Positions 3,201-21,561 of a stretch of DNA of 22,878 bases are shown in pieces (position 1 is the first letter of the stretch; each line of letters opens with the position of its first letter). The stretch comes from a virus. The translations under genes were made by a program, and so were the position numbers. The notes below the pieces were generated by a model that saw only the letters and a list, made by a program, of their open reading frames with translations, made no database searches and was not told the DNA's origin. The stretch is from positions 1-22,878 of the IMG/VR virus record IMGVR_UViG_3300026097_000111. One strand, given 5' to 3'.

Positions 3201-4356
3201 GCCACCCGTCCTGATCGGCCACAAAGGTGAGTGTGCCACAGGCGGTCGTCGGCCCTCCCTGCTCCTCAAACCAGCGCGACCCACCATCGTTAGACGGGCA
3301 GCCGAAGATGGTCCGAGGCCCGTCCTGAAGCACCTGAAGGTGGTGGTAGTGGCCGAACACGAGGACGGTGGCGTCCCCGACCGGGTGCATCGCCGCCATC
3401 TTTCCCTTCCACCACGTCCGCAACTTCGCAAGGGGGATGCCGGACCCGCGAGCCTGATGGCCGTGCGCGAACGCCACCACCGTCCCGCACACGTCCAACG
3501 TCAGCGTCATGTCCCCATCGGGGATGACCCAGCCGATGTGTCCGAACGCCTCCGGGTTCGCGCCAAGAATCTCCTGCACCTGCTCGAACACGGCAAGGTC
3601 GTCGTTGTCCTCGAACGTCGTGAACGACTTGCCGTTCTTCCGGTTCTCACCGTGATTGCCGGGGACCGCGCCGACGACCATCTTCACCGGCAGTTTCGCC
3701 CACTCGCTCAGCATCATCGTCAGGAGACGCCGGACCAACTTCACCTGCTGGCGGCGGTCCAGCTCGACGGAGAATGTCTGCTGCGGATAGTGGCCGTCAC
3801 AGTTCTCCACCATGTCGCCCATCCCCACGACGTACAGGGCCGAAATCGGTCGTCCGGTCTTCTGCGCTTCCTTCACCCGCTTCGGAACCGCATCCTTCAG
3901 CGCCATCAGCCGCTCCACCAGCGCCTCCACCCCGCCGTGGTCCGACTTGCCCGCCTGCCAGTCCGCCAAGCACACGACAAGCGCCCGTTCCGCCAGCACG
4001 TCCTTCGGCGGCTTCGGCTTGCGCCGTTTCACCTCACGAATCAGGTCGTCCACGTCCGGTCCGGCAGCGCCCGCAGCGGGGATGACGGTGGCGCGGTAGT
4101 AGAACGCCCGCCGGTCCCCGGAATCCCACGTTCGGACCTGCACCGGCTGCGACTCGTCCACCGTCCACGCCTCGGGGTCGAGCCCTAGTTCGCGGATGAT
4201 GGCCGACCAGTCCTGCGGCGGCGTCTCACCCGCCTGAACGGTCAGCGTCCCCTTCGCCGTGTCGACCCCCGGTTCCCACCCCTTGGGGTGCGACCGGCGA
4301 GGCACCGAAGCATCGGAAATGTCTCGTTGGACTTTCAGGAACTCGTCAGCGGACAT
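3181..4356 (-). CDS. Calcineurin-like metallophosphoesterase
   Basis: A 391-residue two-domain protein. Residues 1-120 form an N-terminal domain seen in related phage phosphoesterases. Residues 125-391 carry the metallophosphoesterase motif set: LADWQAGK (Asp132), VGMGDMVEN (Gly180-Asp181), GNH (233-235), AHGH (Gly299-His300) and GHYHH (335-339). The complete set predicts a two-metal phosphodiesterase or nuclease of the SbcD/Mre11-like superfamily, though DNA as the substrate is inferred. It starts at ATG 4356, overlaps the preceding helix-turn-helix gene by 11 nt and the next gene by 20 nt. Its place after the endolysin, far from the recombination genes, is unusual for a DNA-repair role. It could act on DNA ends during packaging or on nucleotides. 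Confidence 0.86.
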   Translation of the reverse strand: MSADEFLKVQRDISDASVPRRSHPKGWEPGVDTAKGTLTVQAGETPPQDWSAIIRELGLDPEAWTVDESQPVQVRTWDSGDRRAFYYRATVIPAAGAAGPDVDDLIREVKRRKPKPPKDVLAERALVVCLADWQAGKSDHGGVEALVERLMALKDAVPKRVKEAQKTGRPISALYVVGMGDMVENCDGHYPQQTFSVELDRRQQVKLVRRLLTMMLSEWAKLPVKMVVGAVPGNHGENRKNGKSFTTFEDNDDLAVFEQVQEILGANPEAFGHIGWVIPDGDMTLTLDVCGTVVAFAHGHQARGSGIPLAKLRTWWKGKMAAMHPVGDATVLVFGHYHHLQVLQDGPRTIFGCPSNDGGSRWFEEQGGPTTACGTLTFVADQDGWHDLRIL

Positions 4357-4570
4357 GAGTGCGCCTCCAATGCCCCACCTGCGCAGGAGTCACCGTATGC
4401 CCCCACTTCCCCAGCACCACCGCAATAGCCCGGTGAGAAATCTCCCGCGACCGGCCAGCCTCCAACAAGTCAGCCCGCTGCCCATCCGACAGCTCCGGCA
4501 GGACACGATCCCACCAGCCGGACGTACCCGGCGGCTTCAGCCCACCTTGCGCTTCAAGAAACTCGTTCAC
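4346..4570 (-). CDS. Small helix-turn-helix protein
   Basis: A 74-residue protein with a C-terminal helix-turn-helix-like segment, SHRAIAVVLGKWG followed by HTVTPAQVGHWRR (about residues 45-70), of the sort found in small actinophage DNA-binding proteins. The N-terminal portion has Trp and Pro-rich turns. GTG at 4570 is preferred because GGAAGGGG precedes it by about 6 nt. An ATG at 4660 gives 104 residues but overlaps the endolysin by 46 nt without a clear ribosome binding site. It may be a regulator of late functions or a structural DNA-binding protein; which is unknown. The 44 nt between the endolysin stop and this start contain one TAGTTGACGG copy shared with the operator region. Confidence 0.68.
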   Translation of the reverse strand: MNEFLEAQGGLKPPGTSGWWDRVLPELSDGQRADLLEAGRSREISHRAIAVVLGKWGHTVTPAQVGHWRRTHVR

Positions 4571-4614
4571 GCCGTACCCCTTCCCGTAGACGACGGCGTG
4601 AACGCTACCGTCAA

Positions 4615-5226
4615 CTACCGGCGGCGCAACCACCCCATACGCGACATCTGCCGACGCCAACCATCCCGCAAGTCAGGAATAGGGCTAAGACGCTCTGAGA
4701 TGCGCTGTGCGGCGAGTTCCCCCTTCTCCGCCACCACGCCCCTAGAACGAGGCTGCGGCTCGTCAGTGTCCACCTGCGCGACCCAACGGTAAAGCGTGTT
4801 CCCCGGACACGCCGTCCTGCCCACATCCCGATGCCCCACAACCTCCAACGCCCCGAACCGCTTCTCCGCCTCCCGATGCAGGTCCATGATCGCCCGCTTC
4901 GCCGGACTCGGAACAGGCCGATCCCCGAACCCGACGTAGGCGACGCCGATGGACTCGAAGTTGTGGCCCTTCGCATGGGCACCTCGGAACGCCCAGCCCC
5001 GACCCTCATACACCATCCCATCCGGCGCAACCAAAAAGTTGTAGCCGATGTCCGACCACAACCGCTCCGGCCCCTGATGGAACGCCTGAATCCCACGGAT
5101 GGACCGTGACCCTCGGAACGGGGTGGCGGTGTGGTGGACGACGAACAGGCGGACGAGCGCCGGGGTCAGTTCGGTCGTGTGGTCCGCAGGCGCAGCACCC
5201 CACTCGGCGCGCTTAACGATTCTCAC
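4615..5226 (-). CDS. Endolysin: N-acetylmuramoyl-L-alanine amidase (PGRP/amidase_2)
   Basis: A 203-residue endolysin that would cleave the bond between N-acetylmuramic acid and the L-alanine of the peptide stem in peptidoglycan. The zinc site is complete: His31 in VVHHTATP, His132 in GHRDVG and Cys140 in ACPG, with Tyr62 in GYNFLV and Thr138 near the active site, matching T7-lysozyme-like amidases. The C-terminal 55 residues are charged and Arg/Trp-rich, with no recognisable LysM or SH3 wall-binding repeat, so specificity may reside in that tail. There is no signal peptide, so it needs the neighbouring holin. The start is GTG at 5226, sharing GTGA with the holin stop. Only one catalytic domain is present, simpler than the multi-domain LysA of many mycobacteriophages. 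Confidence 0.93.
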   Translation of the reverse strand: MRIVKRAEWGAAPADHTTELTPALVRLFVVHHTATPFRGSRSIRGIQAFHQGPERLWSDIGYNFLVAPDGMVYEGRGWAFRGAHAKGHNFESIGVAYVGFGDRPVPSPAKRAIMDLHREAEKRFGALEVVGHRDVGRTACPGNTLYRWVAQVDTDEPQPRSRGVVAEKGELAAQRISERLSPIPDLRDGWRRQMSRMGWLRRR

Positions 5227-5456
5227 TCGTCTTCGTACCGGGGTGCGACGGTGAACCCGAGGCCGATGAGGAACGACGCGACCTTCACGCCCCGGTCCTC
5301 CAGCAGCCGCATCACCGCGTAGTAGGCCGCACCCAGCAGCGCGACCAGCGCAGTCTCCACAGCAGCCTCGTCCACATACGGGCTAATGGGCAGCGTCGCC
5401 ACCCACCCCATCACCATAGGAACGACGGTACGGCGAATCGAAGTCAGAAGGTCCAC
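5223..5456 (-). CDS. Holin-like membrane protein
   Basis: A 77-residue protein with the layout of a small actinophage holin: a short basic N-terminus (SIRR), a hydrophobic segment (VVPMVMGWVATLPI), a second Ala/Leu-rich segment (ALVALLGAAYYAVMRLL) and a basic-acidic tail. It would form pores that release the endolysin encoded immediately downstream with a 4-nt overlap. I chose GTG at 5456 because AATGGAG stands 5 nt upstream. An ATG at 5474, giving 83 residues, has no ribosome binding site. Either start overlaps the upstream membrane-protein gene out of frame (74 or 92 nt), so the two share coding DNA. Holin function is by family resemblance and position. Confidence 0.8.
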   Translation of the reverse strand: MDLLTSIRRTVVPMVMGWVATLPISPYVDEAAVETALVALLGAAYYAVMRLLEDRGVKVASFLIGLGFTVAPRYEDE

Positions 5457-5655: not shown

Positions 5656-5900
5656 TTGTCCTCGATGTGCGCCTGCATCATGGCGGTAAGCGTCTCCACC
5701 TGCTCACGCACATACGACAGCGCAGTCTCCAGCGCGGTGAGCCGCTGCTCGATGTGGTCTTGGTCCGTCCACATGCGCGCCATCTCCTCACGAATAGCGA
5801 CCTTCACCGCCTTCAGAAACAGAATGTAAACGCCCCTCGCTGCGCCACCGATAGACAGGAGTGCTGCTGCCCATCCGCCTGCCATGAGGAGCGGGTCCAT
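5652..5900 (-). CDS. Membrane-anchored coiled-coil protein (possible holin or spanin-like)
   Basis: An 82-residue protein with one N-terminal hydrophobic stretch (about residues 6-30, rich in Ala, Gly, Leu and Ile) followed by a long amphipathic helix with heptad spacing (residues 38-80, including LTALETALSYVREQVETL). One membrane anchor plus a coiled coil fits a class III holin, a holin regulator or another lysis membrane protein. Its ATG at 5900 overlaps the TGA of the glycine-rich fibre gene by one base, and its end overlaps the next membrane gene by 4 nt. An internal ATG at codon 6 would leave the anchor intact. Exact role not determinable. Confidence 0.75.
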   Translation of the reverse strand: MDPLLMAGGWAAALLSIGGAARGVYILFLKAVKVAIREEMARMWTDQDHIEQRLTALETALSYVREQVETLTAMMQAHIEDK

Positions 5901-6697
5901 CAGGCGTACAGTTCCACGATAACAAGACCGGAAGAACCGTTGCCGCCCGCCGTGGCACCCGTGCTAGCCGTCGAAACACTACGGCCACCACCACCGCCGC
6001 CAAAACCTTCAGCATTCGAAAAACTTGAACCCGTCGTTTTGTCCTGACCGGAACCACCCGAACCGAACGGGCTAGAACCACCATTGCCGCCCATCTGAAC
6101 AGACGAAGCAGCACAAATCGCACCCTGACCCAACTGCCCGTCATTCGTAATGTCACCGACAGCACTCGTCGTAGGCAGGAAAGGAGACTGCGAAGTTGAA
6201 GGCGGTGCGATAACCGCAGCGCGCACCTTCCCGCCTCTACCTCCGGGGGCGCGAACAAGACCTGCTCCCGACGAGAAAGTGCTGCTTGTTCCGTCGCCGC
6301 CGTCATCGCCTGACGCGGGAACACCCGCCGCACCGACAACAACCGTTTCCGTCGCAGAATAATCCGACGCCAAAGCAAACTTCTCCGCGTACCCGCCGGA
6401 ACATCCACCACCCGCAGGACTGCATTCTCCTGCGCCCGTCGTCTTTCCTCCAGCACCAGCCCCGCCACCACCGACGCAAATGATTCGGTAAGCCCTGATG
6501 TCGTCACCGTCAACCGAACCGTCGCCCATCGGGTCGGACTTTGTGAAGGTTGCGGTTCCGGCGGAATCGAAAAAGCGACGGGCAACGAACCGGTAGCCGT
6601 TATGGAGCGACGCGGTGTTGTCGCGCACATAGGTGTTCATGTCCGCAGCGGACAGGACTTCACCAACTACCCATGTCTTCGGTGTAACGAACGACAT
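5900..6697 (-). CDS. Glycine-rich tail fibre protein (paralogue A)
   Basis: A 265-residue glycine-rich protein. Residues 1-35 (TWVVGEVLSAADMNTYVRDN) match a short N-terminal segment common to actinophage tail fibres and probably attach it to the tail. About residues 40-85 hold a small beta segment with FTKSDPMGDGS, shared with the gene at 8104-8880. The rest, about residues 85-265, is rich in GGGG runs and ends with SSGLVIVELYA. Such Gly-rich regions in receptor-binding adhesins pack as polyglycine helices with variable loops (known from phage S16 gp38; similarity here is in composition only). It may recognise the host surface. AGGAG lies 5-6 nt before its ATG. It is the last tail gene before the lysis cassette. 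Confidence 0.82.
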   Translation of the reverse strand: MSFVTPKTWVVGEVLSAADMNTYVRDNTASLHNGYRFVARRFFDSAGTATFTKSDPMGDGSVDGDDIRAYRIICVGGGGAGAGGKTTGAGECSPAGGGCSGGYAEKFALASDYSATETVVVGAAGVPASGDDGGDGTSSTFSSGAGLVRAPGGRGGKVRAAVIAPPSTSQSPFLPTTSAVGDITNDGQLGQGAICAASSVQMGGNGGSSPFGSGGSGQDKTTGSSFSNAEGFGGGGGGRSVSTASTGATAGGNGSSGLVIVELYA

Positions 6698-6705
6698 TTC
6701 TGCTC

Positions 6706-7893
6706 CTAGAACGCCAGCGGGTTATCGTCTAGTTTACCGCGCACGCCATCGTCAAGAATAAAGAAAGCGCGGGTCTCGCGGCGCTGAAACGAAAGGCCAA
6801 TTTCCCACGCACCGCCAACGGTCACCTGATGCGAAATGCCCTGAACAAGCAGCGCGTTCGAAAACAAGCTGCGACCCGGCGGCGTAAACTCAACATCGCA
6901 AATGTCCGCAAGCTCAAATGACGCCACCTTATTCGCGTCGGACTGTGACAGCCGTTCAAGGTTGACGGTAAGCGCATCGACTCGCGTTGCTGGCTCCTCA
7001 AACTGCGTCAGCAGATACTGGAGAAGGTCTTCCAGCGTAACAGGCGACAAAAGCAGAACGGTTCCGACGTCCAAAGTTCGGATAGAAAACTCCCCCTGAG
7101 AAGTCGCGTTATCGGCCGTCTTGCTCGTTCCGTCGGCCAACGCGCCGGTTACCTTGTTGAACAGGCTGCGTGCTCCGGAAAACCGTTCAACCCGTTCGTA
7201 AGGGATGCCGGTGCCATCGTCAGAAAACTTAGTACCAGCAATCGGATTGTCCAGAGCCGTGTGACGGTTCAGAAAAGTCAGCGTGCCGTCTCTGTCTACA
7301 AAGAAATAGCCCTGTTCGGACTGCTCAATCTGCCTCATGTATTGAAGTGCGTTCCCCGTCGCTGTTCCAGCAGCCAACACCGAAATGCCCGTGTCAACCG
7401 AAGTTTCCGACGGCCAAGACACTCCCGCATTTCCAAGGGTCGTATTGATCCGTGCGCCTGAATCCTCAATCGAAACTGTCTCATCCACGATTTGCTGGTT
7501 GGCGAGCAGCGCGAAACCATCCACGCAGGAAACGAGCGCTTCAGCATCACCACTTAGGGAGTATCCGAGCGTCACGTCTTCGATAAAGCCGGTGAATACT
7601 TTGGGGCCAACCCATGTCAATGTCGGGTCAAGTTCGTCCCATGCACCTGTCTGTTCCGACCATGATTCATACAGGCCGGTTCCGACATAAATGACAACGC
7701 GATCGCGGAGGCGTAGTTCGTCTCCGGCAGGGTCAAACTCGCCGTCAAGGTTGCGAAGGTTGATGCTGGCCCGTCCCGTTTGGAACGGTTCCGTCTCGTC
7801 CGTGCGTCCGCGCGTGATGGAAAGTGAGGTGGCGTAGTCGGACAGGTCTTCGAACCCGGAGCCGCGGTCAATAAGTACCTGAACGTCAGCCAT
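6706..7893 (-). CDS. Minor tail protein, hub/baseplate-like
   Basis: A 395-residue protein of the type annotated as minor tail protein in actinophages. It opens with a beta segment (VQVLIDRGSGFEDLSDYATSLS), has an ITRGRTDET...GRASINLRNLDGEFDP region (about residues 26-55), and an FTGFIEDV stretch typical of hub domains that describe a local coordinate frame. The C-terminal third, with QVTVGGAWEIGLSFQRRE, resembles tail-associated hub proteins. It probably forms the tail tip to which the fibres attach. It is the only protein of this class between the tape measure and the lysis genes, so separate Dit-like and Tal-like proteins are not apparent. Start at ATG 7893 with an 8-nt overlap with the preceding small gene. 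Confidence 0.85.
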   Translation of the reverse strand: MADVQVLIDRGSGFEDLSDYATSLSITRGRTDETEPFQTGRASINLRNLDGEFDPAGDELRLRDRVVIYVGTGLYESWSEQTGAWDELDPTLTWVGPKVFTGFIEDVTLGYSLSGDAEALVSCVDGFALLANQQIVDETVSIEDSGARINTTLGNAGVSWPSETSVDTGISVLAAGTATGNALQYMRQIEQSEQGYFFVDRDGTLTFLNRHTALDNPIAGTKFSDDGTGIPYERVERFSGARSLFNKVTGALADGTSKTADNATSQGEFSIRTLDVGTVLLLSPVTLEDLLQYLLTQFEEPATRVDALTVNLERLSQSDANKVASFELADICDVEFTPPGRSLFSNALLVQGISHQVTVGGAWEIGLSFQRRETRAFFILDDGVRGKLDDNPLAF

Positions 7894-8103: not shown

Positions 8104-8880
8104 TCAGACGAAACAGTCAATAATGACGATGCCGTTCGCGCCCGCAGCGCCATCAGAAGCAGCAGTAGAGTCACCGATTCCGTGTCCGTTCGCACCGCCG
8201 CCATAAAGAAGTCCACTCTGAGGGTTGTCGCCACGCCCACCTTCTCTAGAGCCGCTGAAAAGACTCGCTCCGCCAAAACCTCCCAAAACTCGCGTATCTG
8301 AGAGCGTCAGCGCGACCCCGCCGCCGCCGTCGCCACCGGCGATTACAAGGTCGCCGGTACCCGTAGTTCCTCCAGCCTCTCCGGGAGCGGTAAAAATGGG
8401 GTCCGATAGAACTCGAATGCCGCCGCCACCTCCATTAGCAGTCACGGTCGCACCGAATGACGACGCTCCACCAGATGAACCGTTACCGCTTGAACCTGCT
8501 GCGCCACCGGAGCCGCGAGTGACGGTCACACTCGAGGCAAGACCGGCGATGTCCGTGATGAACGATTCGGCATAAGCACCAGCGCCCCCACCTCCGGATA
8601 CGGCGGCTTCGGTCGCTCCAGTCGCAGGAAGACCAGCCCCACCTCCACCACCAGCGACCATCCGCACCCGGATAGCGCGCAGTCCGATGTCGCCCGTCCC
8701 CAACGGGTCAGCCTTCGCAAAGGAACCCGACGACGTGTAATACCGCGTACCCGCATAGCGGTATCCGGCAGCCACCGTGCTGTCAATAGCTGACCCCAAC
8801 GAACGGATAGCCGCAGCACCCTGCGACACCGCATCCGAATCATCAGGAGTAGGCCACGAAAAGTTCGGAGTAACCGCCAT
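8104..8880 (-). CDS. Glycine-rich tail fibre protein (paralogue B)
   Basis: A 258-residue protein built like the fibre at 5900-6697. Residues 1-40 hold the FSWPTPDDSDAVSQGAAAIR segment that is widespread at the N-termini of actinophage fibres and spikes. Residues 42-75 carry the AGYRYAGTRYYTSSGSFAKADPLG stretch corresponding to NGYRFVARRFFDSAGTATFTKSDPMG in paralogue A. From about residue 78 the protein is glycine-rich with GGGGG runs and ends GANGIVIIDCFV. The two proteins look like duplicated adhesins whose distal parts have diverged, as expected for host-range variation. ATG at 8880 is preceded by GAGGTGA. It follows the 100-residue protein gene by 31 nt. Confidence 0.82.
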   Translation of the reverse strand: MAVTPNFSWPTPDDSDAVSQGAAAIRSLGSAIDSTVAAGYRYAGTRYYTSSGSFAKADPLGTGDIGLRAIRVRMVAGGGGGAGLPATGATEAAVSGGGGAGAYAESFITDIAGLASSVTVTRGSGGAAGSSGNGSSGGASSFGATVTANGGGGGIRVLSDPIFTAPGEAGGTTGTGDLVIAGGDGGGGVALTLSDTRVLGGFGGASLFSGSREGGRGDNPQSGLLYGGGANGHGIGDSTAASDGAAGANGIVIIDCFV

Positions 8881-8911: not shown

Positions 8912-9214
8912 TCAGACAGCATCGGCCAGCGACTCCTCAACAGCGAGGATCGCCGCCGCCTTCGCACGCTCAACCTTCTCCGTCTTAATGCGGTGACGGG
9001 TCTCGTCCGCGAACCACAGCGCGGACACCTCGTCGACACGGTCGTCGGGGACGTCCTCGACGGCGGCGTGCTGGTTCTTCGGCTTGCGCCACTTGGCGAG
9101 GTCGTCGGGCCACTCCTGCGGGAGTGAGTCGAGGACGGCGGTGAGGACGGCGATGTTGTGGTCGTACTGGGCGACCTCTTCGCGTCGTGCTTCGAGGGGT
9201 GTCTTCTCTTCCAT
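8912..9214 (-). CDS. Conserved small phage protein, tail region
   Basis: A 100-residue, charged, mainly helical protein beginning MEEKTPLEARREEVAQYDHNI and ending in a helix KVERAKAAAILA. Similar small proteins occur in the tail-fibre region of other actinophages, as far as I recall, without an assigned function. No motif, signal peptide or membrane segment is seen. The start is an ATG with AAGGAG 6 nt upstream, placed 23 nt after the stop of the propeller gene. It could be a chaperone or linker for the fibre proteins encoded on each side, but nothing in the sequence shows that. Confidence 0.75.
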   Translation of the reverse strand: MEEKTPLEARREEVAQYDHNIAVLTAVLDSLPQEWPDDLAKWRKPKNQHAAVEDVPDDRVDEVSALWFADETRHRIKTEKVERAKAAAILAVEESLADAV

Positions 9215-9237: not shown

Positions 9238-10269
9238 TTATGCTGTCGTGAAATCTACGCCTCTCGCCAAACCAGCAAGGGGAGTAGATGGGTCTGCGTA
9301 CTTTGCGCCGAAACCGGGTGACCAAGAATAAGCAGATAGGCCGATGCCGCCGTCGTAGGTTGCCGCGACCGACGAGTCAGCCGCAGAAAATGCCACCCTC
9401 GCGCCGTTTGCCGGAATGGCCGGAGACGGGTCGGCGTACTTGGCACCAAATCCGGGACCCCACTCAAAACTTGTAAGATAAGGGGCACGGTCATGTGCCG
9501 CGATAACTTCCGTTCCCGTCAAGGACCAAGCGCAATCATTGACTTCGTCGCTGATGCCTCCCGGCGGGTCCGAGTACTTTGTTCCAAAACCGCCCGACCA
9601 AGCATACGCCGCCAAATACGGCGAAAGGTTCAACCCCAAAAGAAGGTCTGCCCCTGACGGAGAAAAGGCAGCAGCGTAACAAGGCCTCGTTATTGGAGCA
9701 GCCGCATCTGCGTACTTCGCCCCAAAACCGGAAGACCACGAGTAAACCGAAACGTAAGGTGGAGTCGAGTATCCAAGAGCGATGTCCGCGCCCGAAGGGG
9801 AAAACGAAATACCGCGGGCGCTGCTTCCTATTGCCGGAGATGGGTCAGCGTACTTTGTGCCAAACCCAGAAGACCATGCGTAAGCAAAAACATGAGGCGC
9901 TCCTCCGTAAGTAGCGACGACTATGTCGTCACCGGAGGGGGACCACTGCAAACGTTCGCCCACATTGGGCGGCGCAGAGGCAGGGGCCGCATACCTAGCA
10001 CCGAAGCCCGGACCCCACGGGTAGACCGAAAAATAAGAACCGTTAAGGTGGGTCGCCGCTACGTCTGCGTTAGATGGAGAAAACTTAACGTCGAAACTAG
10101 TGCCGGGAAGTCCGGGAAATGGGTCTGCGTACTTTGCGCCAAAACCGGGTGACCAAGAATAAGCAGATAGGCGAGTACCGAACCCGTGAGAAACAGCAAC
10201 GGCCGCCCCACCCCCGCCGCTACCAACCGGGAACAGGCGGGTCAGCGCAAGACTCAGACCGAGCCGCAT
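9238..10269 (-). CDS. Seven-bladed beta-propeller repeat protein (putative spike or adhesin)
   Basis: A 343-residue protein made of a 46-47-residue repeat with consensus Y-x-W-x-x-GFG-x-KYADP followed by FSPSGADI. Six full copies and a seventh half-copy at the C-terminus can be counted from about residue 34. An N-terminal strand (AVAVSHGFGTR) would complete the seventh blade, the 'velcro' closure of WD40-like propellers. The first 20 residues include a hydrophobic stretch (LGLSLALTRLFPV) and a Gly run that could be a hinge or anchor. No catalytic residues are visible; propellers of this kind bind partners or glycans. It overlaps the spike-base-like gene by one base (TGATG), so the two may form one appendage. 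Receptor binding is inferred. Confidence 0.88.
   Translation of the reverse strand: MRLGLSLALTRLFPVGSGGGGAAVAVSHGFGTRLSAYSWSPGFGAKYADPFPGLPGTSFDVKFSPSNADVAATHLNGSYFSVYPWGPGFGARYAAPASAPPNVGERLQWSPSGDDIVVATYGGAPHVFAYAWSSGFGTKYADPSPAIGSSARGISFSPSGADIALGYSTPPYVSVYSWSSGFGAKYADAAAPITRPCYAAAFSPSGADLLLGLNLSPYLAAYAWSGGFGTKYSDPPGGISDEVNDCAWSLTGTEVIAAHDRAPYLTSFEWGPGFGAKYADPSPAIPANGARVAFSAADSSVAATYDGGIGLSAYSWSPGFGAKYADPSTPLAGLARGVDFTTA
9288..9341. repeat. 54-bp direct repeat, copy 1 (encodes propeller blade 7)
   Basis: These 54 bp match positions 10119-10172 at 53 of 54 bases, differing only at 9310. They encode the LSAYSWSPGFGAKYADP core of the last blade; the partner encodes the same core of the first blade. 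The other blades share the protein motif but are more diverged in DNA, so the end blades seem to have been duplicated or converted recently. Confidence 0.92.
10119..10172. repeat. 54-bp direct repeat, copy 2 (encodes propeller blade 1)
   Basis: Partner of the repeat at 9288-9341, in the same orientation and 831 bp away. Recombination between the two would remove six blades in frame, since 831 is a multiple of three, and leave a short but open protein. Confidence 0.92.
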
Positions 10270-10532
10270 CAGACCAGCCCGACGAGATCCGTCGCGTCCG
10301 TCGCCGTCCCGATAGCCGCAGCACGCACCGGCAGGAACGAACCATCCGCGACGTTCGTGAACGTCACCTCCCCACCACCGACCGTCTCGACGACAACGCT
10401 GCCACCAGTACCGACGTACAGAGCACGCGCCGCAGTAGACAGGGCACTGCCGTAATCGGCAGTACCGATAGCAAAGGCGTTCTCAGCAGGACCGTCGATG
10501 GTCGGCTGGAACGAAGCGAACGGGTCTGCCAT
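10269..10532 (-). CDS. Spike base protein-like (RcGTA Rcc01079-type)
   Basis: An 87-residue protein with the pattern RALYVGTGGSVVVETVGGGEVTFTNV...LPVRAAAIGTATDATDLVGL. This strongly resembles the family named after Rcc01079 of the Rhodobacter capsulatus gene transfer agent, which forms the base of head spikes there. The start MADPF is also typical. The protein should be an all-beta oligomeric base carrying a larger spike. The next gene, overlapping by one base, is the propeller protein, consistent with a base-plus-tip pair; in the gene transfer agent the base is also followed by its fibre gene. Whether the appendage sits on head or tail in this phage cannot be told. AAGGAG precedes the ATG. 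Confidence 0.8.
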   Translation of the reverse strand: MADPFASFQPTIDGPAENAFAIGTADYGSALSTAARALYVGTGGSVVVETVGGGEVTFTNVADGSFLPVRAAAIGTATDATDLVGLV

Positions 10533-10534
10533 TG

Positions 10535-10681
10535 CTACTCCTTTGAGCGGCTTTTATGCAGGTTATCGGCCTGATCAAGCGGCTCGCTGGCGAGAGTGTA
10601 GCGGTCAATAATACCCATCGCAGTAATCGTCGCCCAAAATCGTCTTACACAACGGCGAATGGGCTCCGAAATCGCCATCAT
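10535..10681 (-). CDS. 48-residue protein following the tape measure
   Basis: A small open frame with two ATG codons at 10681 and 10678; the first shares one base with the tape measure TGA. It encodes MMAISEPIRRCVRRFWATI, then a polar C-terminal half ending SRSKE. Its last codons carry the AAGGAG of the spike-base gene, which starts 2 nt after its TAG. The N-terminal basic-hydrophobic helix could be amphipathic. No family is recognised. Without this gene the operon would have an isolated 148-nt gap, so I consider it likely real. The overlapping frame 10605-10841 lies mostly inside the tape measure and is a shadow. Confidence 0.62.
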   Translation of the reverse strand: MMAISEPIRRCVRRFWATITAMGIIDRYTLASEPLDQADNLHKSRSKE

Positions 10682-13437
10682 CACACAAAATCTCCAGATC
10701 CAAGACGTACATAGCCGCCAAGAGGACCGTTCGCCCGCGTAAACCGACGGATAGCTTCAACAACAGCCTGCGGATCAGCAGAAGTAACCGTGACGTTGAC
10801 GTTGGTGGGAGCAGGGGCAACCTGACGTTCCCGTTCGGCACGCTGTGCTGCGGCCATCTCAGCGAACCTACGAGCCTCGTTCGCCGCCATCTGGGAGTTC
10901 ACCCCGACAGACGCCTGAATAATCCCAGCAGACTCGTTGATGCCCTTGGACATGCCCTCCATCATGTCCTGCCCGATGTTCTCGAACAGCTTGGATGGGG
11001 AGGAGATACCGAGGAAGTTTTTGGTCGCGTTCCAAGCGTTCCGGGCCGCGTCGACGAGGGAATCCTTCAGGGCGGACGCTTTGCTCTTAATTCCGTCAAC
11101 CATTCCGTCGATGATGGACTTGCCCCACGCTCGAAAACTGTCAACCTTTCCGGCGAACCAGACGGCAAGTTCCATGAAACGGTCGTTGAACCACCTGACC
11201 ACGTTGTTCTTGAACCAAGTGTCGAACTTGCGGATTCCTTGGAACACGAACTCTACGAGCGCTTCACCGATGTTCTCGAACTCGCGGTCCTGCGTGTTGA
11301 ACCAGTTTCGGAACCGGACGATGAAGATGGTGATTGCGGCGACGATTGCGGCGATGAGGAGGGCGGGCCAGCCGAAGATTGCGGTGATGAACCCTCCGAC
11401 GACCTTCAGGAGGGCTTTCGCGCCGACCTTCAGGAGTGCCATGATTGCCGTGCGAATCGTCGCTCCGGCGACCCCAGCGAACCGGAACGCCCACCGTCGA
11501 AACGCCCCACGGACGGAAATCAGGAGAGTCTGGAACAGCGGTCGGAGGGCGGTCGCTACTGACGCGAACGCGGTGCGGAACGCGGTGGCGATACCCGACA
11601 GGATGATCCGGCCGAGGGATGCGATACCGATAGCGACGAGCTGGATGGCGGTCCAGATGGCCTTCAGGAGCCCCTTGGCGAGGAACGGGACGAGACGGGT
11701 GAAGAACGCCCCTCCGAGACGCTTGAACCCGGCGAACAGGGGGCGGAGGAGGAACCGGATTGGCGCTCCGATGATGGGGATGCGGGACACGATCAGCGCT
11801 GCGAACAGGCCGTTCAGGAGGCTGTCGCTGAAGATGCTGCTGATGGTGCTGGTGCCTTGGTCGGCCTCGTTTCGGGCCGTGGCCGGGTCGCTGAACATGC
11901 CCTTGAAGAACCCGACGAGGAAGTCAACGGCAAACGCGCCGACCGTTATGCCGATAGCGCCCCAGTCCTGCGACTTGGCCCATTCGGCGAGCGGTTCCGT
12001 AATGTCCCCGGCGGCCTCGAAAGCGCTGCGGAACGTGTTGGCGATGAACTCGCCGAGCAGCCTTCCGGCCTCCTCTGGGTCGCCCTCGTCAAGCGCGGCG
12101 CGGAAGTCCGGCGCAAACTTGCGGAAACGCTCCACAAGCGCCTCCAGTTCGCCAAGGCCGATAGCGCCAAACTCTTGCAGGCTTTCCCGAAACTCGTTGA
12201 GCGGCTCACGCAGGTTTTCGTCGAAGAACGTCTTGAACTCCCCGAACTTCGTAATTGAACGGTTGACGAACTCCTCAACTTTGGGGATAGCGCGCTCGAC
12301 GAAATCCTCGATGGCGGGGAGCTGGCCTTGGAACCACTCGACAAACCGGCCGAGCGGCCCGGCGAGCGCCTCACCAATCGTGATGCCGATGTCGGCGAAA
12401 CCGGACTGAAGAATGTCGAGTTGCGCGGAGAACGACTGCAACTGCTTGTCGGCAACCTCGTCGGTAACGCCGCCCATCTCGCGCAGGGCGTCTTCGTACT
12501 CCCGAATCGCATCCCCACCGCCGAGGAGCTGTCGGATGTTGTTACCAACGGAACGGGTCAGTCCGAGCTGGTCGAGAGTGACGGCCTGCTGGGCGTCGGA
12601 CATCGGGCCGAGGAGGTCGGTGAACTCGTCCACCACGTCGGCCATGTTCCGAAGGTTCCCCTCCGAATCCAGAACATTAATGCCGAGCTTCTCGAAGTCG
12701 TCCTGATTCTTTCCGGCCGCACGGGTCACGTCTCGGAGGACGATGTTCAGCGCCTCACCGGCCGTCGCACCCTTGACACCCTGATCGGCGAAGAACGCAA
12801 GGACCGCCGCACCCTCCTCAACGTCCTTCCCGAGGACTCGGAGTGCGGCACCGGCCTTGTTCGTCAGCGCCTCAGAGAACTCCTCTGCCGTCGCGTTAGC
12901 GAGCGTGTTCGCGCCGATGAGCACGTCCGACACTCGCGCCATGTTCGCCATGTTCTCGGCGGTGTCGTCAACGGTCAGACCGAGAGCAGACTGCGCATCC
13001 GTCAGAAGGTCGGTGGCGCGGGCCATGTCGAACGCACCGGCCTGTGCGAACGCCGCAACCTGCGGGAGAGCCTGCAACGACTGTGTGGCATCCAAACCGG
13101 CAGAGGCGAGGAAGAAGAACGACTCTGCGGCCTGCTCGGCGGTGAACCGGGTCGACTTGGCAACGTCGCGGGCCGCCTGCTCCATGTCGGTCCGCATCGT
13201 GTCCGACATGTCGCCCATAATGGCGGTCGAACGGGTCATCGCGTCGTCAAACTTGGCGAACTCGCGGATGGAGAACCCTGCGATAGCACCCGCAGCCGAC
13301 GCGATTACCTTCGCAGCAGCCGCAGCCGCGCCAGCAAGAACACCAAACGCGCTCGCGCCAGTCTTCGTCGCCTTCTGAAGATCGCGGGAATCACCCGCAA
13401 TCATCACCTGAATGACGCTCGTCTTCCTACCCGCCAT
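10681..13437 (-). CDS. Tail tape measure protein
   Basis: A 918-residue tape measure, which spans the tail tube, sets its length and is threaded out at infection. The N-terminal region (about residues 30-400) is the TP901-type core, with Ala-rich helices and the family segments FDDAMTRSTAIMGD, AEQAAESFFFLASAGLDATQ and the phage-typical FADQGVKGATAGEAL. The middle (about residues 540-720) has several hydrophobic helices, including LLIAAIVAAITIFIV, that could be membrane-active. The C-terminal part has LGISSPSKLFENIGQDMMEGMSKGI, a standard tape-measure end motif. At about 1.5 angstrom per residue the tail would be near 138 nm (inference), implying a long flexible siphovirus tail. ATG at 13437 is preceded by GAGGTGA. 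Confidence 0.96.
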   Translation of the reverse strand: MAGRKTSVIQVMIAGDSRDLQKATKTGASAFGVLAGAAAAAAKVIASAAGAIAGFSIREFAKFDDAMTRSTAIMGDMSDTMRTDMEQAARDVAKSTRFTAEQAAESFFFLASAGLDATQSLQALPQVAAFAQAGAFDMARATDLLTDAQSALGLTVDDTAENMANMARVSDVLIGANTLANATAEEFSEALTNKAGAALRVLGKDVEEGAAVLAFFADQGVKGATAGEALNIVLRDVTRAAGKNQDDFEKLGINVLDSEGNLRNMADVVDEFTDLLGPMSDAQQAVTLDQLGLTRSVGNNIRQLLGGGDAIREYEDALREMGGVTDEVADKQLQSFSAQLDILQSGFADIGITIGEALAGPLGRFVEWFQGQLPAIEDFVERAIPKVEEFVNRSITKFGEFKTFFDENLREPLNEFRESLQEFGAIGLGELEALVERFRKFAPDFRAALDEGDPEEAGRLLGEFIANTFRSAFEAAGDITEPLAEWAKSQDWGAIGITVGAFAVDFLVGFFKGMFSDPATARNEADQGTSTISSIFSDSLLNGLFAALIVSRIPIIGAPIRFLLRPLFAGFKRLGGAFFTRLVPFLAKGLLKAIWTAIQLVAIGIASLGRIILSGIATAFRTAFASVATALRPLFQTLLISVRGAFRRWAFRFAGVAGATIRTAIMALLKVGAKALLKVVGGFITAIFGWPALLIAAIVAAITIFIVRFRNWFNTQDREFENIGEALVEFVFQGIRKFDTWFKNNVVRWFNDRFMELAVWFAGKVDSFRAWGKSIIDGMVDGIKSKASALKDSLVDAARNAWNATKNFLGISSPSKLFENIGQDMMEGMSKGINESAGIIQASVGVNSQMAANEARRFAEMAAAQRAERERQVAPAPTNVNVTVTSADPQAVVEAIRRFTRANGPLGGYVRLGSGDFV

Positions 13438-14040: not shown

Positions 14041-14297
14041 GGAGTCTCGGACAAAGGGAGTTCGCCACCCTCAATAATCTGAACATCCCGAACCGTGTCC
14101 AGCCAAGCGTCAAAGCCCTTCTTCGACCCGGACGCCTTCCAAGCCAGCCAGTAGATGTGCTCCGCCTTCTGGTCGGTCTGGAAAGCCCGCCCGAGGCCAG
14201 TCTGGAACTCGCGCTCAAACTGGACAACGACACGGGGGGTAACGGGGTACTCCCCCTCGCCATCAGTCGTCTCAACGCGCAGGGTGACAGCAAACAT
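14037..14297 (-). CDS. Tail assembly chaperone
   Basis: An 86-residue protein between the major tail protein and the tape measure, the standard location of the tail assembly chaperone (lambda G-like). It begins with a beta segment (FAVTLRVETTDGEGEYPVTPRVVVQFEREF) and continues with the IYWLAWKASGSKKGFDAWLD helix region seen in actinophage chaperones. It is acidic overall and ends with a disordered tail. It starts at ATG 14297 with AGGAG 8 nt upstream. Near the 3' end is a CCCTTTG heptamer, and its stop overlaps the ATG of the second ORF, so both an ordinary product and a frameshifted long form are expected. Confidence 0.85.
   Translation of the reverse strand: MFAVTLRVETTDGEGEYPVTPRVVVQFEREFQTGLGRAFQTDQKAEHIYWLAWKASGSKKGFDAWLDTVRDVQIIEGGELPLSETP
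14052..14058 (-). promoter_or_regulatory. Candidate -1 ribosomal slippery heptamer (CCCTTTG)
   Basis: Read on the minus strand in the chaperone frame this is C CCT TTG, fitting the X XXY YYZ pattern with codons CCT (14057-14055) and TTG (14054-14052) in the zero frame. It is six codons before the stop counting the stop. The -1 frame continues open (P F V R D S M T) straight into the 45-residue ORF. Programmed -1 shifting here would create a G-GT-like fusion, as in lambda. Confidence 0.65.
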
Positions 14298-14325
14298 GTC
14301 CTTGACTCCTATTCAGTTAGAGATT

Positions 14326-14730
14326 TCAGGCGGTACCACGGGTGAGAACGCCGTCGACCGGCCAAGTGACCGACTTCGTGGCGAGCTCGCCGACGCCGCC
14401 GCCCCAACCCCACTCAGTCACGAGGACCGAGCCGGTGTAGTGCGGGTTCGCGGTGCCGACAGCAGAACCCTTCGGGCCGATGACGATGGCGGCGGTGCCA
14501 CCAACGAGCGGCGCGACGGTCGCGTCAATCTCGGCCGGGTCGAAGTTCTGGTGGAAGTCCAGAGCAACCGACTGGTCACGGAGGCCGCCGACACGAGTAC
14601 GCCCGGTCTGACCGAACGCCGTCGTCTCGATCTCCTCGGCCTCGTCGTTGAACTCAATCGACGCGATGTAGTCCGAGAAGTCCTCGCCCGCGATGCTGAT
14701 GTAAGCGTCCGTAAGAACGGTGCGTGCCAT
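14326..14730 (-). CDS. Major tail protein
   Basis: A 134-residue protein with the compact fold and sequence of a siphovirus tail tube subunit: MARTVLTDAYISIAG...DFSDYIASIEFN (first strands), EIETTAFGQTGRTRVGGLRDQSVALDFHQ (central region) and a C-terminal strand EWGWGGGVGELATKSVTWPV. These are typical of actinophage tail tube proteins, here without an added Ig-like domain. It should polymerise as hexameric rings around the tape measure. ATG 14730 shares one base with the stop of the preceding gene (TAATG). A 28-nt gap follows before the chaperone, the longest in this part of the operon, consistent with independent translation of the chaperone. Confidence 0.92.
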   Translation of the reverse strand: MARTVLTDAYISIAGEDFSDYIASIEFNDEAEEIETTAFGQTGRTRVGGLRDQSVALDFHQNFDPAEIDATVAPLVGGTAAIVIGPKGSAVGTANPHYTGSVLVTEWGWGGGVGELATKSVTWPVDGVLTRGTA

Positions 14731-14945
14731 TATTCCTGCTCCTCCGGCTGGTCAGCCGAGTCATCCTCTAGCGCCGGGACAGGTTCCGGCTCTTGAACCT
14801 TCTTGGTCGTCTTTTTCGGTGCGTCTTCCACCGGAACAACCTTGCCTCCGGCGAGAAGCACGCTCATGTTACCACCGAGGTCTTCGGCGGTCACAAGCGA
14901 ACCTTCAGGGAACGCCATCCGCTTAGAAACAACACGGTACATCAT
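14730..14945 (-). CDS. Small acidic protein between tail terminator and major tail protein
   Basis: A 71-residue protein with a short N-terminal beta portion (MMYRVVSKRMAFPEGSLVTAED, then a GGNMSVLLAGGKVVPV strand) and an unstructured acidic tail with a Lys cluster (PKKTTKK) and a Glu/Pro/Asp-rich end. It begins at one of two adjacent ATG codons overlapping the upstream TGA (14942-14945), and its TAA overlaps the major tail protein start. Small proteins of similar size and position occur in related actinophages, without a known job. A connector or chaperone for the tail tube is possible. Confidence 0.75.
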   Translation of the reverse strand: MMYRVVSKRMAFPEGSLVTAEDLGGNMSVLLAGGKVVPVEDAPKKTTKKVQEPEPVPALEDDSADQPEEQE

Positions 14946-15340
14946 GCGACTACCTCCACCTCGAACTCGACACCAAGATACACCACGTCCCCGACGCTGA
15001 CCTGACCGTAGTTTCGCATCTCTGTCACGCGGGCCGTGTTCGCCACACCCCCGAGGGTCCGGTCGGCCTCGATAGCCGCCTTCACCGAACCGGCCCCGAC
15101 GATGTAAGTGTCGATGTTCCTCTGGGCCGCCCGATCATCCGCACGGCCAACCAGCAGCGAAATCAGGAAGAAAAAGGTGTCTGCGCCACGGTTCGCGTTC
15201 AGGTCGTAGTCCACCCGCTCCGGCAGAACCATCGCTACCGGCGGGCGGGGCGCGTCAAGAAACGTCGCGGACACGCGAAGGTTCGGGACAGTTTCAAGCC
15301 GCTCTGCGATGCCGTCTCGCAGGTCCGCGATGGAACTCAT
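14942..15340 (-). CDS. Tail terminator-like protein
   Basis: A 132-residue protein with the family features of phage tail terminators: an N-terminal helix (LRDGIAERLETVPNLRV), a central beta strand block with FFFLISLLVG, a helix IDTYIVGAGSVKAAIEADRTLGGVA, and a C-terminal strand block ending VVYLGVEFEVEVVA. The terminator caps the tube and joins the tail to the head. Its placement between the connector and the major tail protein supports this. The ATG at 15340 overlaps the connector stop (ATGA). A minor neck or head-tail stopper protein is the alternative; a separate gp7-like stopper is not visible. Confidence 0.78.
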   Translation of the reverse strand: MSSIADLRDGIAERLETVPNLRVSATFLDAPRPPVAMVLPERVDYDLNANRGADTFFFLISLLVGRADDRAAQRNIDTYIVGAGSVKAAIEADRTLGGVANTARVTEMRNYGQVSVGDVVYLGVEFEVEVVA

Positions 15341-15960: not shown

Positions 15961-16563
15961 CTACAGCCTCGCTGCTGAGATACGACCTGCGTAAATAATC
16001 TGCGCCTTCGGGAAGAAGTCGCGGAGAATGTCCCCACCGCCGGGGAAGTCCTCCACGACGTACACGCCGCCGGGGTTCATCAGCGGGGCGACCAGCCGGA
16101 CCGTGTTCGTAATCGCATCCCGCGTGTGCGGCCCGTCATCCACGAACAGGTCAATTCCCGGCAGGTCGGCAAGGAAGTCCGTGTCGTCGCCGTAGGCGTC
16201 CCACTCGTGCAGGATCGGCTGGTTGTAGGTGAACGCGCCCCGTGACACGAGAGCGGGACGGTTCTCCTTGAACCGCTCAAAATCAAGGTCTAGGCCGACG
16301 ACGATCGCCTCGGGGTACAGGTGGCACCAGAGTGCAAGCGACGCGCCACGGAAAACGCCCAACTCCACGACGAGCTGCGGGTTCAGGTCTTTCAGCAGCG
16401 CAGAGTAGACGTGGGCGTAGTTGTTCCGGTCGGCCGCCATCTTGTCGCCACCGAGGTTCCACGGCGCATGAGGGTTCCTGTCCTTCGGAGAGAAAACTCC
16501 CCGGCCCTTCTCCACGGCAGGAGAGAACTGCGCTTCGAGCGCAATCAGGCGTTCAGCGTCCAT
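15961..16563 (-). CDS. CmcI/class I SAM-dependent methyltransferase-like protein
   Basis: A 200-residue protein with a class I methyltransferase core resembling CmcI (cephalosporin hydroxylase family) and related sugar or natural product methyltransferases. The SAM-binding loop is VVELGVFRGASL (about residues 63-74), followed by an acidic VVGLDLD strand, then LFVDDGPHT and GGVYVVEDF, the DDGxH and VVED pairs typical of the family. It likely modifies a sugar or hydroxyl group. ATG at 16563, with AAAGG about 8 nt upstream, overlaps the second glycosyltransferase by 19 nt; an extension to 16638 is Arg-rich and improbable. It completes a cassette with two glycosyltransferases, so methylation of a glycan is plausible but inferred. 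Confidence 0.83.
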   Translation of the reverse strand: MDAERLIALEAQFSPAVEKGRGVFSPKDRNPHAPWNLGGDKMAADRNNYAHVYSALLKDLNPQLVVELGVFRGASLALWCHLYPEAIVVGLDLDFERFKENRPALVSRGAFTYNQPILHEWDAYGDDTDFLADLPGIDLFVDDGPHTRDAITNTVRLVAPLMNPGGVYVVEDFPGGGDILRDFFPKAQIIYAGRISAARL

Positions 16564-17315
16564 TCCCAAAACCTTTCGCCAGCGCCAGACACGAACTCGG
16601 CAACCTCGTCGGGAGTGTCGCCCGGAACCCTGCCACACAGCTCGTTTGTGACAATCTCACAGCCCGCAATCTGCGCCTCGATCACGGTACGGGGACACGG
16701 GTCGATGATGTTCTTCGGCAGGTGAACGAAATACTTGGCGGTCGCCATCTCTGCCAGCACCGTCTCACGGTCCGCGTCAGTCACCGCACGGAACGGAATG
16801 CCGTTCTCCTCGGCCCACTTGCGCGCCCCGTCAGGGTTCTTATGCCAAATGTTCCGGCCCGCCCACAACGCCACGTTCTCCTTCACGCCGTCTCGTGGGA
16901 TGGCGGACACGTCCATCGGGGCAGGGCAAATCTGGTAGGGCAGGTCGAACCATGTGTGCCAGCGTGCGCACTCGTGGGACGGCCACACCATCAGCCGGGC
17001 GGCACGGAACAGTTCCATCCGCCACGACTGCTGCGGCGACCGGACCCACACGACCGGACGGTACGGCAGCAGCGCCGTCTGCATCGCCGGATTCAGATGC
17101 TCCGTCGCGCCGACAACAATCAGGTCGTACTCGTCAAGGTCCGGCAGGGCCAGCGGAAGATGATGCCGAACAACCTCCACACCCTCCGGAGCCTGCGCAA
17201 GCATCTCCTCCGTCGACATCTCCGCGCCACCGGCGTACAGGCCCGGAAGCAGACCCGTGCGCTTCGGCTGCGGCTCAAACGCGGCGAACTGATGGGAAAG
17301 CCAAAGAAGCCTCAT
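16545..17315 (-). CDS. Glycosyltransferase, GT-B type (second of pair)
   Basis: A 256-residue protein with a GT-B-like layout: an N-terminal Rossmann half opening MRLLWLSHQFAAF, a linker LWAGRNIWHKNPDGARKWAEE, and a C-terminal half with NIIDPCPRTVIEAQIAGCEIVTNEL, the E-x7-E-like nucleotide-sugar binding signature of GT4-like enzymes. It is shorter than the usual 350-400 residues, so domains are compact. ATG at 17315 overlaps the stop of the first glycosyltransferase (ATGA). A longer form from 17342 is unlikely. The donor and acceptor are unknown; DNA, capsid protein or tail protein are all possible, with virion proteins favoured by the location. Confidence 0.82.
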   Translation of the reverse strand: MRLLWLSHQFAAFEPQPKRTGLLPGLYAGGAEMSTEEMLAQAPEGVEVVRHHLPLALPDLDEYDLIVVGATEHLNPAMQTALLPYRPVVWVRSPQQSWRMELFRAARLMVWPSHECARWHTWFDLPYQICPAPMDVSAIPRDGVKENVALWAGRNIWHKNPDGARKWAEENGIPFRAVTDADRETVLAEMATAKYFVHLPKNIIDPCPRTVIEAQIAGCEIVTNELCGRVPGDTPDEVAEFVSGAGERFWEWTLNA

Positions 17316-18541: not shown

Positions 18542-19729
18542 TCACGAACCGCCCTCGAAGTACTTGACGTTCGCGGACTGTCCGAGGTCACCCCAGACGC
18601 GCATGGCCACACGCCACACGACCTCATCCGTGTCGAAGGCGAAGTCGTCGCTACGCGCAACCTCGATACCCCCGACCTGACGCACGTGGTAGCTGCTCAT
18701 GTCACCGTAGATGACCGACTTGTTTCCGGCACCAACGGCGGGAGCGAACGGGTTCTCAACGATGCGCTCGCCGAGGATGCGGGGCTCACCAGCAGCCCCG
18801 TACTCGAACAGGTAGCGCCCGTCGCCGTCCCTGAGCTTGCGGACCGCACCGAGGGTCGCACGGCTCATTTGGAGGGCCGTGGCCGGACGCGCCGCAACAG
18901 CCGAGTCGACCGAGTGGAGCAGGTCGATCAGGTTGTCAGCGGTAAACGCACCAGCGACAGAAGTGCCACCCGTGACGCCCGAACCAGCGGCGTCGAAGAT
19001 GCCCTGCGGCTCGACGGTGCCCGTGCCGACCGCGAGAAGGTCGTTGACCTTGTACCCGACAGCCTCACCGGCCTGACGGGCGAGGTACGGAACCAGCGGA
19101 ATGCCGCTGTCCTCGATGATCTCGCGGCTCGTCTTCAGAAGAACGCCCACCTTCTGCGCCTTCAGGGTGAAGGACTCGCCGGTCGGGTTGGAGACGGCGT
19201 ACTGCGCGCCCTCAGCGGTCGCCGTGGCGGCCGAGAAAGCGGTCTGACGCGGAACCTTGATGTCGTTCCCCGACGCCGTGTTCAGGATGGTGTACAGGCC
19301 CGGCTCGAACGCGGGGCCGGTGTACCGGAGAATCTCCTGAATCTGGTCGTAGAAGCCCTGCGGCACGAGCTCCGCGTCAGCGGACGTGCTCATCGGGCTG
19401 GAGCTGTCACGCATCTCGAAGACGTGACCGCGAATCTCGCCAGTCAGAAGGCTGCGGAGGATGTCGTTGTCCGTGGTCGTCTCGACCTTGGACTCGACGG
19501 TGGGAACCTCGATGCGGGCCTCAACGGCACGCGCCTCGCGCTCCGCGTCCTCACGGAAACGGTTGATGGACTCGTCGTAACGGTCAATGTCAGCGACGAT
19601 GCGGTCGTACTGCGCCTGCTCCTCACCCGAAAGGTCACGGGCCTCGGTAGCGGCGTGGTCAAGAAGGCTCTTGGCCTCCTCCCACGCACGGTTGCGCAGC
19701 TCAACCTGACGGTCGATGTACTGCTGCAT
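18542..19729 (-). CDS. Major capsid protein, HK97 family
   Basis: A 395-residue HK97-fold capsid subunit. Residues 1 to about 105 form a charged, coiled-coil delta/scaffold domain (GEEQAQYDRIVADIDRYDESINRFRED) that the prohead protease would remove, with maturation cleavage expected near residues 100-115. The mature part starts with the N-arm and carries QGFYDQIQEILRYTGPAFEPGL, the P-domain AKQV...TSREIIEDSGIPLVPYL style segment and the LAVGTGTVEPQGIF stretch usual in actinophage capsids. The C-terminal half ends with VVWRVAMRVWGDL. Whether the HK97 chain-mail crosslink (Lys-Asn) occurs cannot be decided. GGGGGTGA lies just upstream of the ATG. Leader and trailer both have unusual structure, described separately. 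Confidence 0.96.
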   Translation of the reverse strand: MQQYIDRQVELRNRAWEEAKSLLDHAATEARDLSGEEQAQYDRIVADIDRYDESINRFREDAEREARAVEARIEVPTVESKVETTTDNDILRSLLTGEIRGHVFEMRDSSSPMSTSADAELVPQGFYDQIQEILRYTGPAFEPGLYTILNTASGNDIKVPRQTAFSAATATAEGAQYAVSNPTGESFTLKAQKVGVLLKTSREIIEDSGIPLVPYLARQAGEAVGYKVNDLLAVGTGTVEPQGIFDAAGSGVTGGTSVAGAFTADNLIDLLHSVDSAVAARPATALQMSRATLGAVRKLRDGDGRYLFEYGAAGEPRILGERIVENPFAPAVGAGNKSVIYGDMSSYHVRQVGGIEVARSDDFAFDTDEVVWRVAMRVWGDLGQSANVKYFEGGS

Positions 19730-21292: not shown

Positions 21293-21561
21293 CAGCAGGA
21301 CTTTTGGAAGACAACATACGAAAGGTTGTGGCCGGTCTTGCTAGACACCGCGTACACACGGTCAAGAGGGTTCAGGTCAAGCCGAAGGTTCTCCAACTTG
21401 TTCAACTGCATCCCGGTCGTCGGAGTCGCATCCGGACCGCCGATAAAAACTTCGTCCGTGTTGTCATCGTTGTGCAACTGGATGGAGAACGGCATGACGC
21501 ACGTCTCAGGGATTTCCGTCGCCGCAGTACCAACCGCGACACGACCGCTGTTCACCGGCAT
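21292..21561 (-). CDS. Small conserved protein between portal and protease
   Basis: An 89-residue mainly beta protein with the pattern NSGRVAVGTAATEIPE...PFSIQLHNDDNTDEVFIGGPDATPTTGMQLNKLENLRLDLNPLDRVYAVSSKTGHNLSYVV. It recalls small all-beta phage virion proteins, such as head decoration or spike elements, that display a GGPD loop. No enzymatic motif. It is linked by one-base overlaps to both the portal (TAATG) and protease (TGATG) genes, so it is expressed with the head proteins. Head decoration is a guess from composition and position. Confidence 0.75.
   Translation of the reverse strand: MPVNSGRVAVGTAATEIPETCVMPFSIQLHNDDNTDEVFIGGPDATPTTGMQLNKLENLRLDLNPLDRVYAVSSKTGHNLSYVVFQKSC

Follow-up and report, generated by a model that had tools for sequence, protein, structure and literature searches.

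A candidate RcGTA-type head spike with a seven-bladed propeller tip in an uncultured bacterial virus

Described head spikes and the setting of the locus

The closest described system is the head spike of RcGTA, in which a base, Rcc01079 (GhsA), carries a fibre, Rcc01080 (GhsB), that binds the capsule (available part of PMC10218006). According to the available part of PMC7296036, the N-terminus of Rcc01079 contacts the capsid, with E12 sharing a cation with the capsid residue Asp210, and a single Rcc01080 fibre enters the base pentamer by its residues 2-10, IALGLGLGL (the "five-point star"), the alternate side chains of which fill five pockets, the remaining fibre being flexible; the same text describes the RcGTA tail fibre as having a beta-propeller foot, which is on the tail and not on the head. 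Both spike genes are located away from the main RcGTA cluster, and relatives of the base are already known in phages, for example in RcapNL (available part of PMC8601537). A 5:1 star plug has so far been described for one particle, RcGTA. The turret of the archaeal virus HFTV1 is akin to the arrangement considered below in being a base plus a putative glycan-binding tip on the capsid, but it differs in its hexameric base on hexamers and its trimeric tip, and the available part of that report (PMC12494034) mentions no five-fold plug formed by a single peptide. In the open-access literature, we found neither the plug reported as a general rule nor a propeller reported on a head spike, which agrees with a preliminary description of the present locus, whose author knew of no characterised example of a propeller tip on such a base.

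The sequence under study (the window) comprises positions 1 to 22,878 of IMG/VR record IMGVR_UViG_3300026097_000111, from an uncultured bacterial virus. By PHROG matches, its minus strand carries the structural region of a long-tailed phage, with genes for the portal, a protease, the capsid protein, a glycosyltransferase, a methyltransferase, the neck, the tail, and the tape measure; the base, propeller, 8912..9214, capsid, tape measure, and 6706..7893 genes treated below all lie on this strand. A megablast search of the whole window against phages gave zero matches; at the level of the capsid protein, the nearest named phage is Pontimonas phage phiPsal1, at 37% identity, which shares the gene order of the window and from which a Microbacteriaceae-like actinobacterium may be guessed as the host. 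The base gene (10269..10532) and the propeller gene (9238..10269) are located among the tail genes, in the order tape measure (10681..13437, directly upstream of the base and assigned by sequence family matches), base, propeller, a Gly-rich tail-fibre-like gene, and a tail protein (6706..7893). The last of these has a relative in phiPsal1 (a 396-aa product of 14044-15231, 28% identity, E 9e-39) that comes immediately after the tape measure gene, and the base/propeller pair is absent from that phage. Since the two genes follow each other there without a gap, we regard the base, the propeller, the 8912-9214 gene, and one Gly-rich gene as additions in the window.

Other parts of the gene order may be recorded here. 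The Gly-rich proteins of 8104-8880 and 5900-6697 both match Gly_rich_2 and phrog_863, and they are likely a duplicated tail-fibre part. The glycosyltransferase (17312-18454) and methyltransferase (15961-16638) genes sit between the capsid and neck genes, as do their phiPsal1 equivalents, and their products may modify the virion. Between the portal and protease genes, 21292-21561 encodes an 89-aa protein with a weak DUF7339 match and 29% identity to a phiPsal1 counterpart in the same place, which is perhaps another small head protein.

The spike base, the propeller, and the docking peptide

The 87-residue product of 10269..10532 is related, in sequence and predicted fold, to Rcc01079, the base of the RcGTA head spike, and the homology on which the preliminary description had staked its reading was upheld. 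In a phmmer search against the PDB, residues 3-81 matched 6tb9_E3, "Head spike base Rcc01079" (E 7.9e-6), with a flagellin as the runner-up (E 0.0056), and the AlphaFold2 model (pLDDT 92.5), a jelly-roll fold, found its best PDB match in 6tb9_A1 (TM 0.83/0.86; Z 12.3, rmsd 1.6 Å over 83 residues). The second PDB match of the model was 8cjz_h (Z 9.5, rmsd 3.8 over 79), which is, by its PDB title, from the Carin1 phage mature capsid (no Carin1 phage paper was found in the open-access literature), and the turret protein A223 of the archaeal virus STIV resembles it in fold (Z 5.4, rmsd 2.5 over 65). The PHROG match, over the full length, is phrog_12296, labelled "tail fiber protein" (E 6.8e-15). 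The N-terminal segment (residues 1-16; 10485..10532) corresponds, by alignment, to the N-terminal stretch by which Rcc01079 binds the capsid, with D13 of the window base aligned with E12. Within the base family, P15 is present in 87 of 98 rows, and an acidic residue (D/E) occupies position 13 in 24 of 98 (both among the matches listed). The window base found zero matches in the named phages, even at E 10, and we therefore used the Rcc01079 stretch as the query, which found 15 records. Five loci (L214, L140, L100, L106, and L108) contain two or more base-like stretches close by each other.

The adjoining gene, 9238..10269, encodes a 343-aa protein that is, in its predicted structure, a closed ring of seven four-stranded beta-propeller blades preceded by a peptide and a linker. 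Both reading frames were found where the preliminary description had placed them on the minus strand, sharing base 10269 in a TGATG stop/start overlap, and its count of seven blades was borne out by seven GFGxKYADP-type repeats at a spacing of 138-141 nt (46-47 residues), by a model with a pLDDT of 92.1 and a pTM of 0.89, and by a best structural match to the designed seven-bladed propeller 7bid (Z 37.6, rmsd 2.0 over 286). Other good structural matches were lactonase-type and WD40 propellers; by sequence, the propeller gave zero matches in the PDB, and the Pfam WD40 profile was unmatched up to E 1. The propeller domain spans residues 21-343 (9241..10209), and residues 10-20, with a Gly-rich end, form a predicted flexible linker (10210..10242), residues 1-19 having a pLDDT below 50 and being predicted disordered. 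Stretches of 54 nt in the first and last blades (9288-9341 and 10119-10172) are 98% identical, the other blades being at 63-72%, a near-identity that reads as a sign of recent blade-to-blade exchange.

The N-terminus of the propeller protein reads MRLGLSLALTRLFPVGSGGGG, and its first nine residues, MRLGLSLAL (10243..10269), are the putative docking peptide, in which the alternate hydrophobics M1, L3, L5, L7, and L9 make a run of five, provided that the start methionine is retained. Like the RcGTA spike, the window thus has (i) a base homologous in sequence and predicted fold, (ii) a next protein that starts with alternate hydrophobics and has a predicted flexible N-terminus, and (iii) a capsid protein nearest to that of RcGTA among solved structures. 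It differs from RcGTA in its tip, a seven-bladed propeller that belongs to another family and has a partner gene of its own, and in the placing of the genes within the phage structural cluster. The coupling of base and propeller is better supported than the preliminary description had it, because the propeller carries a docking peptide of the RcGTA-spike type that went unmentioned there.

The propeller family is common in environmental phages, with 61 loci found by exact patterns (including the twin of the window) and more by profile. The genes upstream of these relatives are mixed and often fibre-like, in a survey that includes near-identical loci (for example L043-L046); in the cultured phage POR1, the propeller (Orf76) lies downstream of a collagen-like gene, with no base gene beside it. 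Relatives of the 100-aa product of 8912..9214 lie directly behind 42 of 63 propeller genes (a count that includes the same near-identical loci and omits six propeller genes without room) and at none of 170 propeller-free loci, among the matches listed, and we accordingly treat the propeller and this small partner as a cassette. The 8912-9214 product is possibly an assembly helper; it gave nothing above the Pfam curated cut-off, and its relatives had no trusted Pfam or PHROG match. Members of its family (such as L009:7464-7829 and L041:4721-4969) have YQINIDNY-like and SEKLEQKKA-like stretches. In one phage record, MW202701 (L235), seven places match the propeller family, one of them a gene annotated "wD40 repeat protein"; a gene for a tail assembly chaperone lies two genes downstream of it.

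The cassette of the window is thus of the same family as those elsewhere, which have other N-termini and no adjacent base (among the matches listed), whereas the window's is preceded by a spike base and not by a fibre-like gene. The five-position peptide was found only in the window's propeller among 112 distinct ones, and a base beside the propeller only in the window among the 108 tested; with a looser motif, seven of 108 propellers pass, which is about the background rate (all among the matches listed). A second IMG/VR record, L002, contains the same 6008 bases as the window at 100% identity; it stands for the window in the propeller set and is counted as the same phage.

Star-type starts beside other base genes

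In the named phages RcapNL, P8625, Pben1, immuto, and ctsTn925, the base is followed, as in the window, by a protein with a star-type start (MGLGLGIGLGL, MIGLGLDLSL, MLIGLGIGIGF, MYIGLGISL, and MLAGLSLGMGI, respectively). Their tips differ from the window's, that of P8625 being a lectin-like domain according to its record. The one-base overlap of base and partner also occurs in RcapNL, P8625, ctsTn925, and Pben1. Further, the base partners in L004 and L005 begin with MLHLGIGM. In DSS3P8, RpoS-V10, RHph_Y25, and Cr30, the neighbour of the base lacks a star start, and the R. capsulatus DSM 1710 genome (L359) has a base without an adjacent one. In L003, a star-type start, MALALPLSL, belongs to a gene (4095-4853) that stands before the base (4866-5258) and not after it.

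We compared start codons at -5 to +60 nt from the base stop with those more than 300 nt away, after narrowing the permitted peptide offset from 6 to 4. The counts cover the best 80 matches of each of three scans, one of which used the propeller profile, and omit five base rows without downstream room, as well as loci with less than 300 nt downstream or with the same stretch around the base end. A star start lay beside the base in 51 of 130 viral and phage loci, being absent in 79 (among the matches listed), and in 12 of 44 bacterial-genome loci, being absent in 32, although 11 of 44 is the safer figure because the inclusion of L360 rests on a wrong, later start; the first start at that locus, MLGLGLGGLGLG, fails the strict rule. 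The corresponding start codons passed in 61 of 209 cases near the base versus 153 of 10217 distant ones in the viral and phage loci (p 4e-55; among the matches listed) and in 15 of 90 versus 59 of 4677 in the bacterial genomes (p 3e-12), p-values that serve only as a guide since nearby start codons overlap and the loci are related. The genome set is the fairer test, because the rule was shaped on the seeds RcGTA, RcapNL, P8625, immuto, L004, L003, and the window. Five near misses among the bacterial-genome loci (L319, L321, L326, L340, and L342) look star-like and are uncounted. An earlier procedure, greedy gene picking, returned 37 of 69 neighbours versus 54 of 762 and 14 of 295 controls (among the matches listed), and 4 of 19 versus 3 of 183 and 4 of 134 in the genomes; it missed true partners in GC-rich loci, and the start-codon test was used instead.

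Runs of five or more were found in 21 of 12815 start codons. After removal of the spurious partners L148 and L169 and of duplicate starts, the strict alternate runs of 38 distinct starts numbered five at three positions, 21 at four, nine at five, and three at six. A clean peak at five had been sought as support for a five-fold plug, and it is not claimed, since the runs peak at four (21 of 38).

Compared without their first 20 residues, the star partners from 50 loci gave 16 sequence clusters, two of which (L148 and L169) are probably spurious (among the matches listed); in the same analysis, 4.5% of shuffled N-termini pass. Pfam searches with 31 partner proteins (30 of the 45 listed partners, with that of L003 as the thirty-first) found Laminin_G_3 seven times and five further domains once each (GLEYA, PA14, VWA, DUF7483, and an arabinofuranosidase domain). 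The diversity of these clusters, with their lectin-like, PA14, GLEYA, and VWA domains, indicates that the tip varies behind a conserved peptide. The window and L132 have "LALTR" in common at the end of the plug, yet sit in different partner clusters, which fits an exchange of tips behind the plug.

A proposed two-part head spike and its alternatives

What is new here is the star-like N-terminus of the propeller and the recurrence of such starts behind base genes before unrelated tips. Given that base relatives are known and that we found no propeller tip reported in the open-access literature, we file the pair as an RcGTA-type head spike with a new tip; we judge it probable that the base and propeller genes encode a two-part spike on the head, with the propeller plugged into the base ring by its N-terminal peptide. 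In this arrangement, five copies of the 87-residue base would form a ring on a capsid pentamer, their N-termini holding it as in RcGTA, and one propeller per ring would thread MRLGLSLAL into the ring, presenting one hydrophobic side chain to each subunit pocket as a 5:1 plug. The flexible Gly-rich linker would keep the seven-bladed propeller away from the head, where it would most likely make the first, reversible contact with a host surface glycan, in the way that the RcGTA fibre contacts the capsule. A propeller and its 100-residue partner, found elsewhere behind other, often fibre-like, genes, would here have been joined to a base-docking peptide. We infer the pentamer, the capsid location, the single copy, and the role of the 100-residue protein; glycan binding is suggested by analogy with RcGTA and with other tips, as a propeller fold alone does not show its ligand. 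Several findings act as counterweights to this reading: a star start is absent at most loci, the strict runs peak at four positions, the window reaches five only with its start methionine, the cation-binding acid is conserved in only the minority of bases counted above (24 of 98, among the matches listed), the pair is located among tail genes, and PHROG labels the base family "tail fiber protein".

The preliminary description had left the spike on either the head or the tail. The head is now favoured and the tail less so, because the clear solved relatives of the base, 6tb9 and 8cjz_h, are both capsid-located, and because the major capsid protein of the window (18542..19729; phrog_10), the presumed docking surface for the base, has the RcGTA capsid protein as its best PDB matches (E 1.7e-13 and 1.8e-13). 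That the base ring instead sits on the tail, at a tip or baseplate, with the propeller as a tail spike, is improbable in our estimate. It would be reflected in the position of the pair behind the tape measure gene, with a Gly-rich tail-fibre-like gene and a tail protein following, and in the PHROG label of the base family; against it stand the capsid-located relatives and the gene order in other phages. In immuto, the capsid gene is followed directly by the base and star genes, and the upstream genes of other bases (70 of 111 compared with PHROGs) include capsid, portal, and head-tail adaptor families. Moreover, gene place says little, given that the RcGTA spike genes lie apart from their main cluster. 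As a whole, the interpretation in the preliminary description is partly supported.

Among the readings that compete with the glycan-binding head spike, the most serious accepts the spike and makes its propeller an enzyme or a protein binder; propeller folds have many functions, and lactonase-type and WD40 propellers were among the good structural matches, but lectin-like and PA14 domains are found as tips on other such bases, and the ligand of the RcGTA fibre is the capsule (available part of PMC10218006), so that we consider this unlikely, though worth keeping in mind. It is less probable still, below even a location on the tail, that the propeller is mounted on the Gly-rich fibre-like protein of 8104-8880 or another tail fibre and stands behind the base by accident: propeller relatives do follow other genes, a collagen-like one in POR1, and Gly-rich tail-fibre-like genes are present in the window, but the fibre-like gene here comes after the propeller rather than before it, and both the five-position peptide (among 112 propellers) and the neighbouring base are confined to the window's propeller among the matches listed. 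An assembly error that joined a propeller cassette to a base gene would account for the arrangement being found as a single sequence (among the matches listed), and we give it very little credence, since the peptide, the one-base overlap, and the 8912-9214 partner gene are all in place and the 6008 bases recur at 100% identity in the second IMG/VR record, which may be from the same sample.

Extending the head-spike reading from this locus to phages at large, we regard the chances as evenly balanced that a single kind of head-vertex socket serves them all, a pentameric jelly-roll base able to accept any tip with a short N-terminal plug of alternate hydrophobics, one tip per five-fold ring, with lectin, PA14, GLEYA, VWA, and propeller tips exchanged by recombination and the window representing a fibre-context propeller cassette captured onto the head. 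The recurrence of the socket and plug with different tips suggests that phages may swap tips like tool heads. If the plug recurs before unrelated tips in many phages, a sequence rule could find head-mounted host-binding proteins that are annotated as "hypothetical" or "tail fiber". Host binding by virion heads has received little study, and the compact tip found in the window can be expressed and assayed; further, the plug could serve to attach one chosen protein per capsid vertex.

A related arrangement was seen in L333, a contig binned as Microbacteriaceae, in which none of the window genes found a match by tblastn. Its base is followed by a protein starting with MDLGMGVTS, and such spikes may therefore exist near the host group of phiPsal1.
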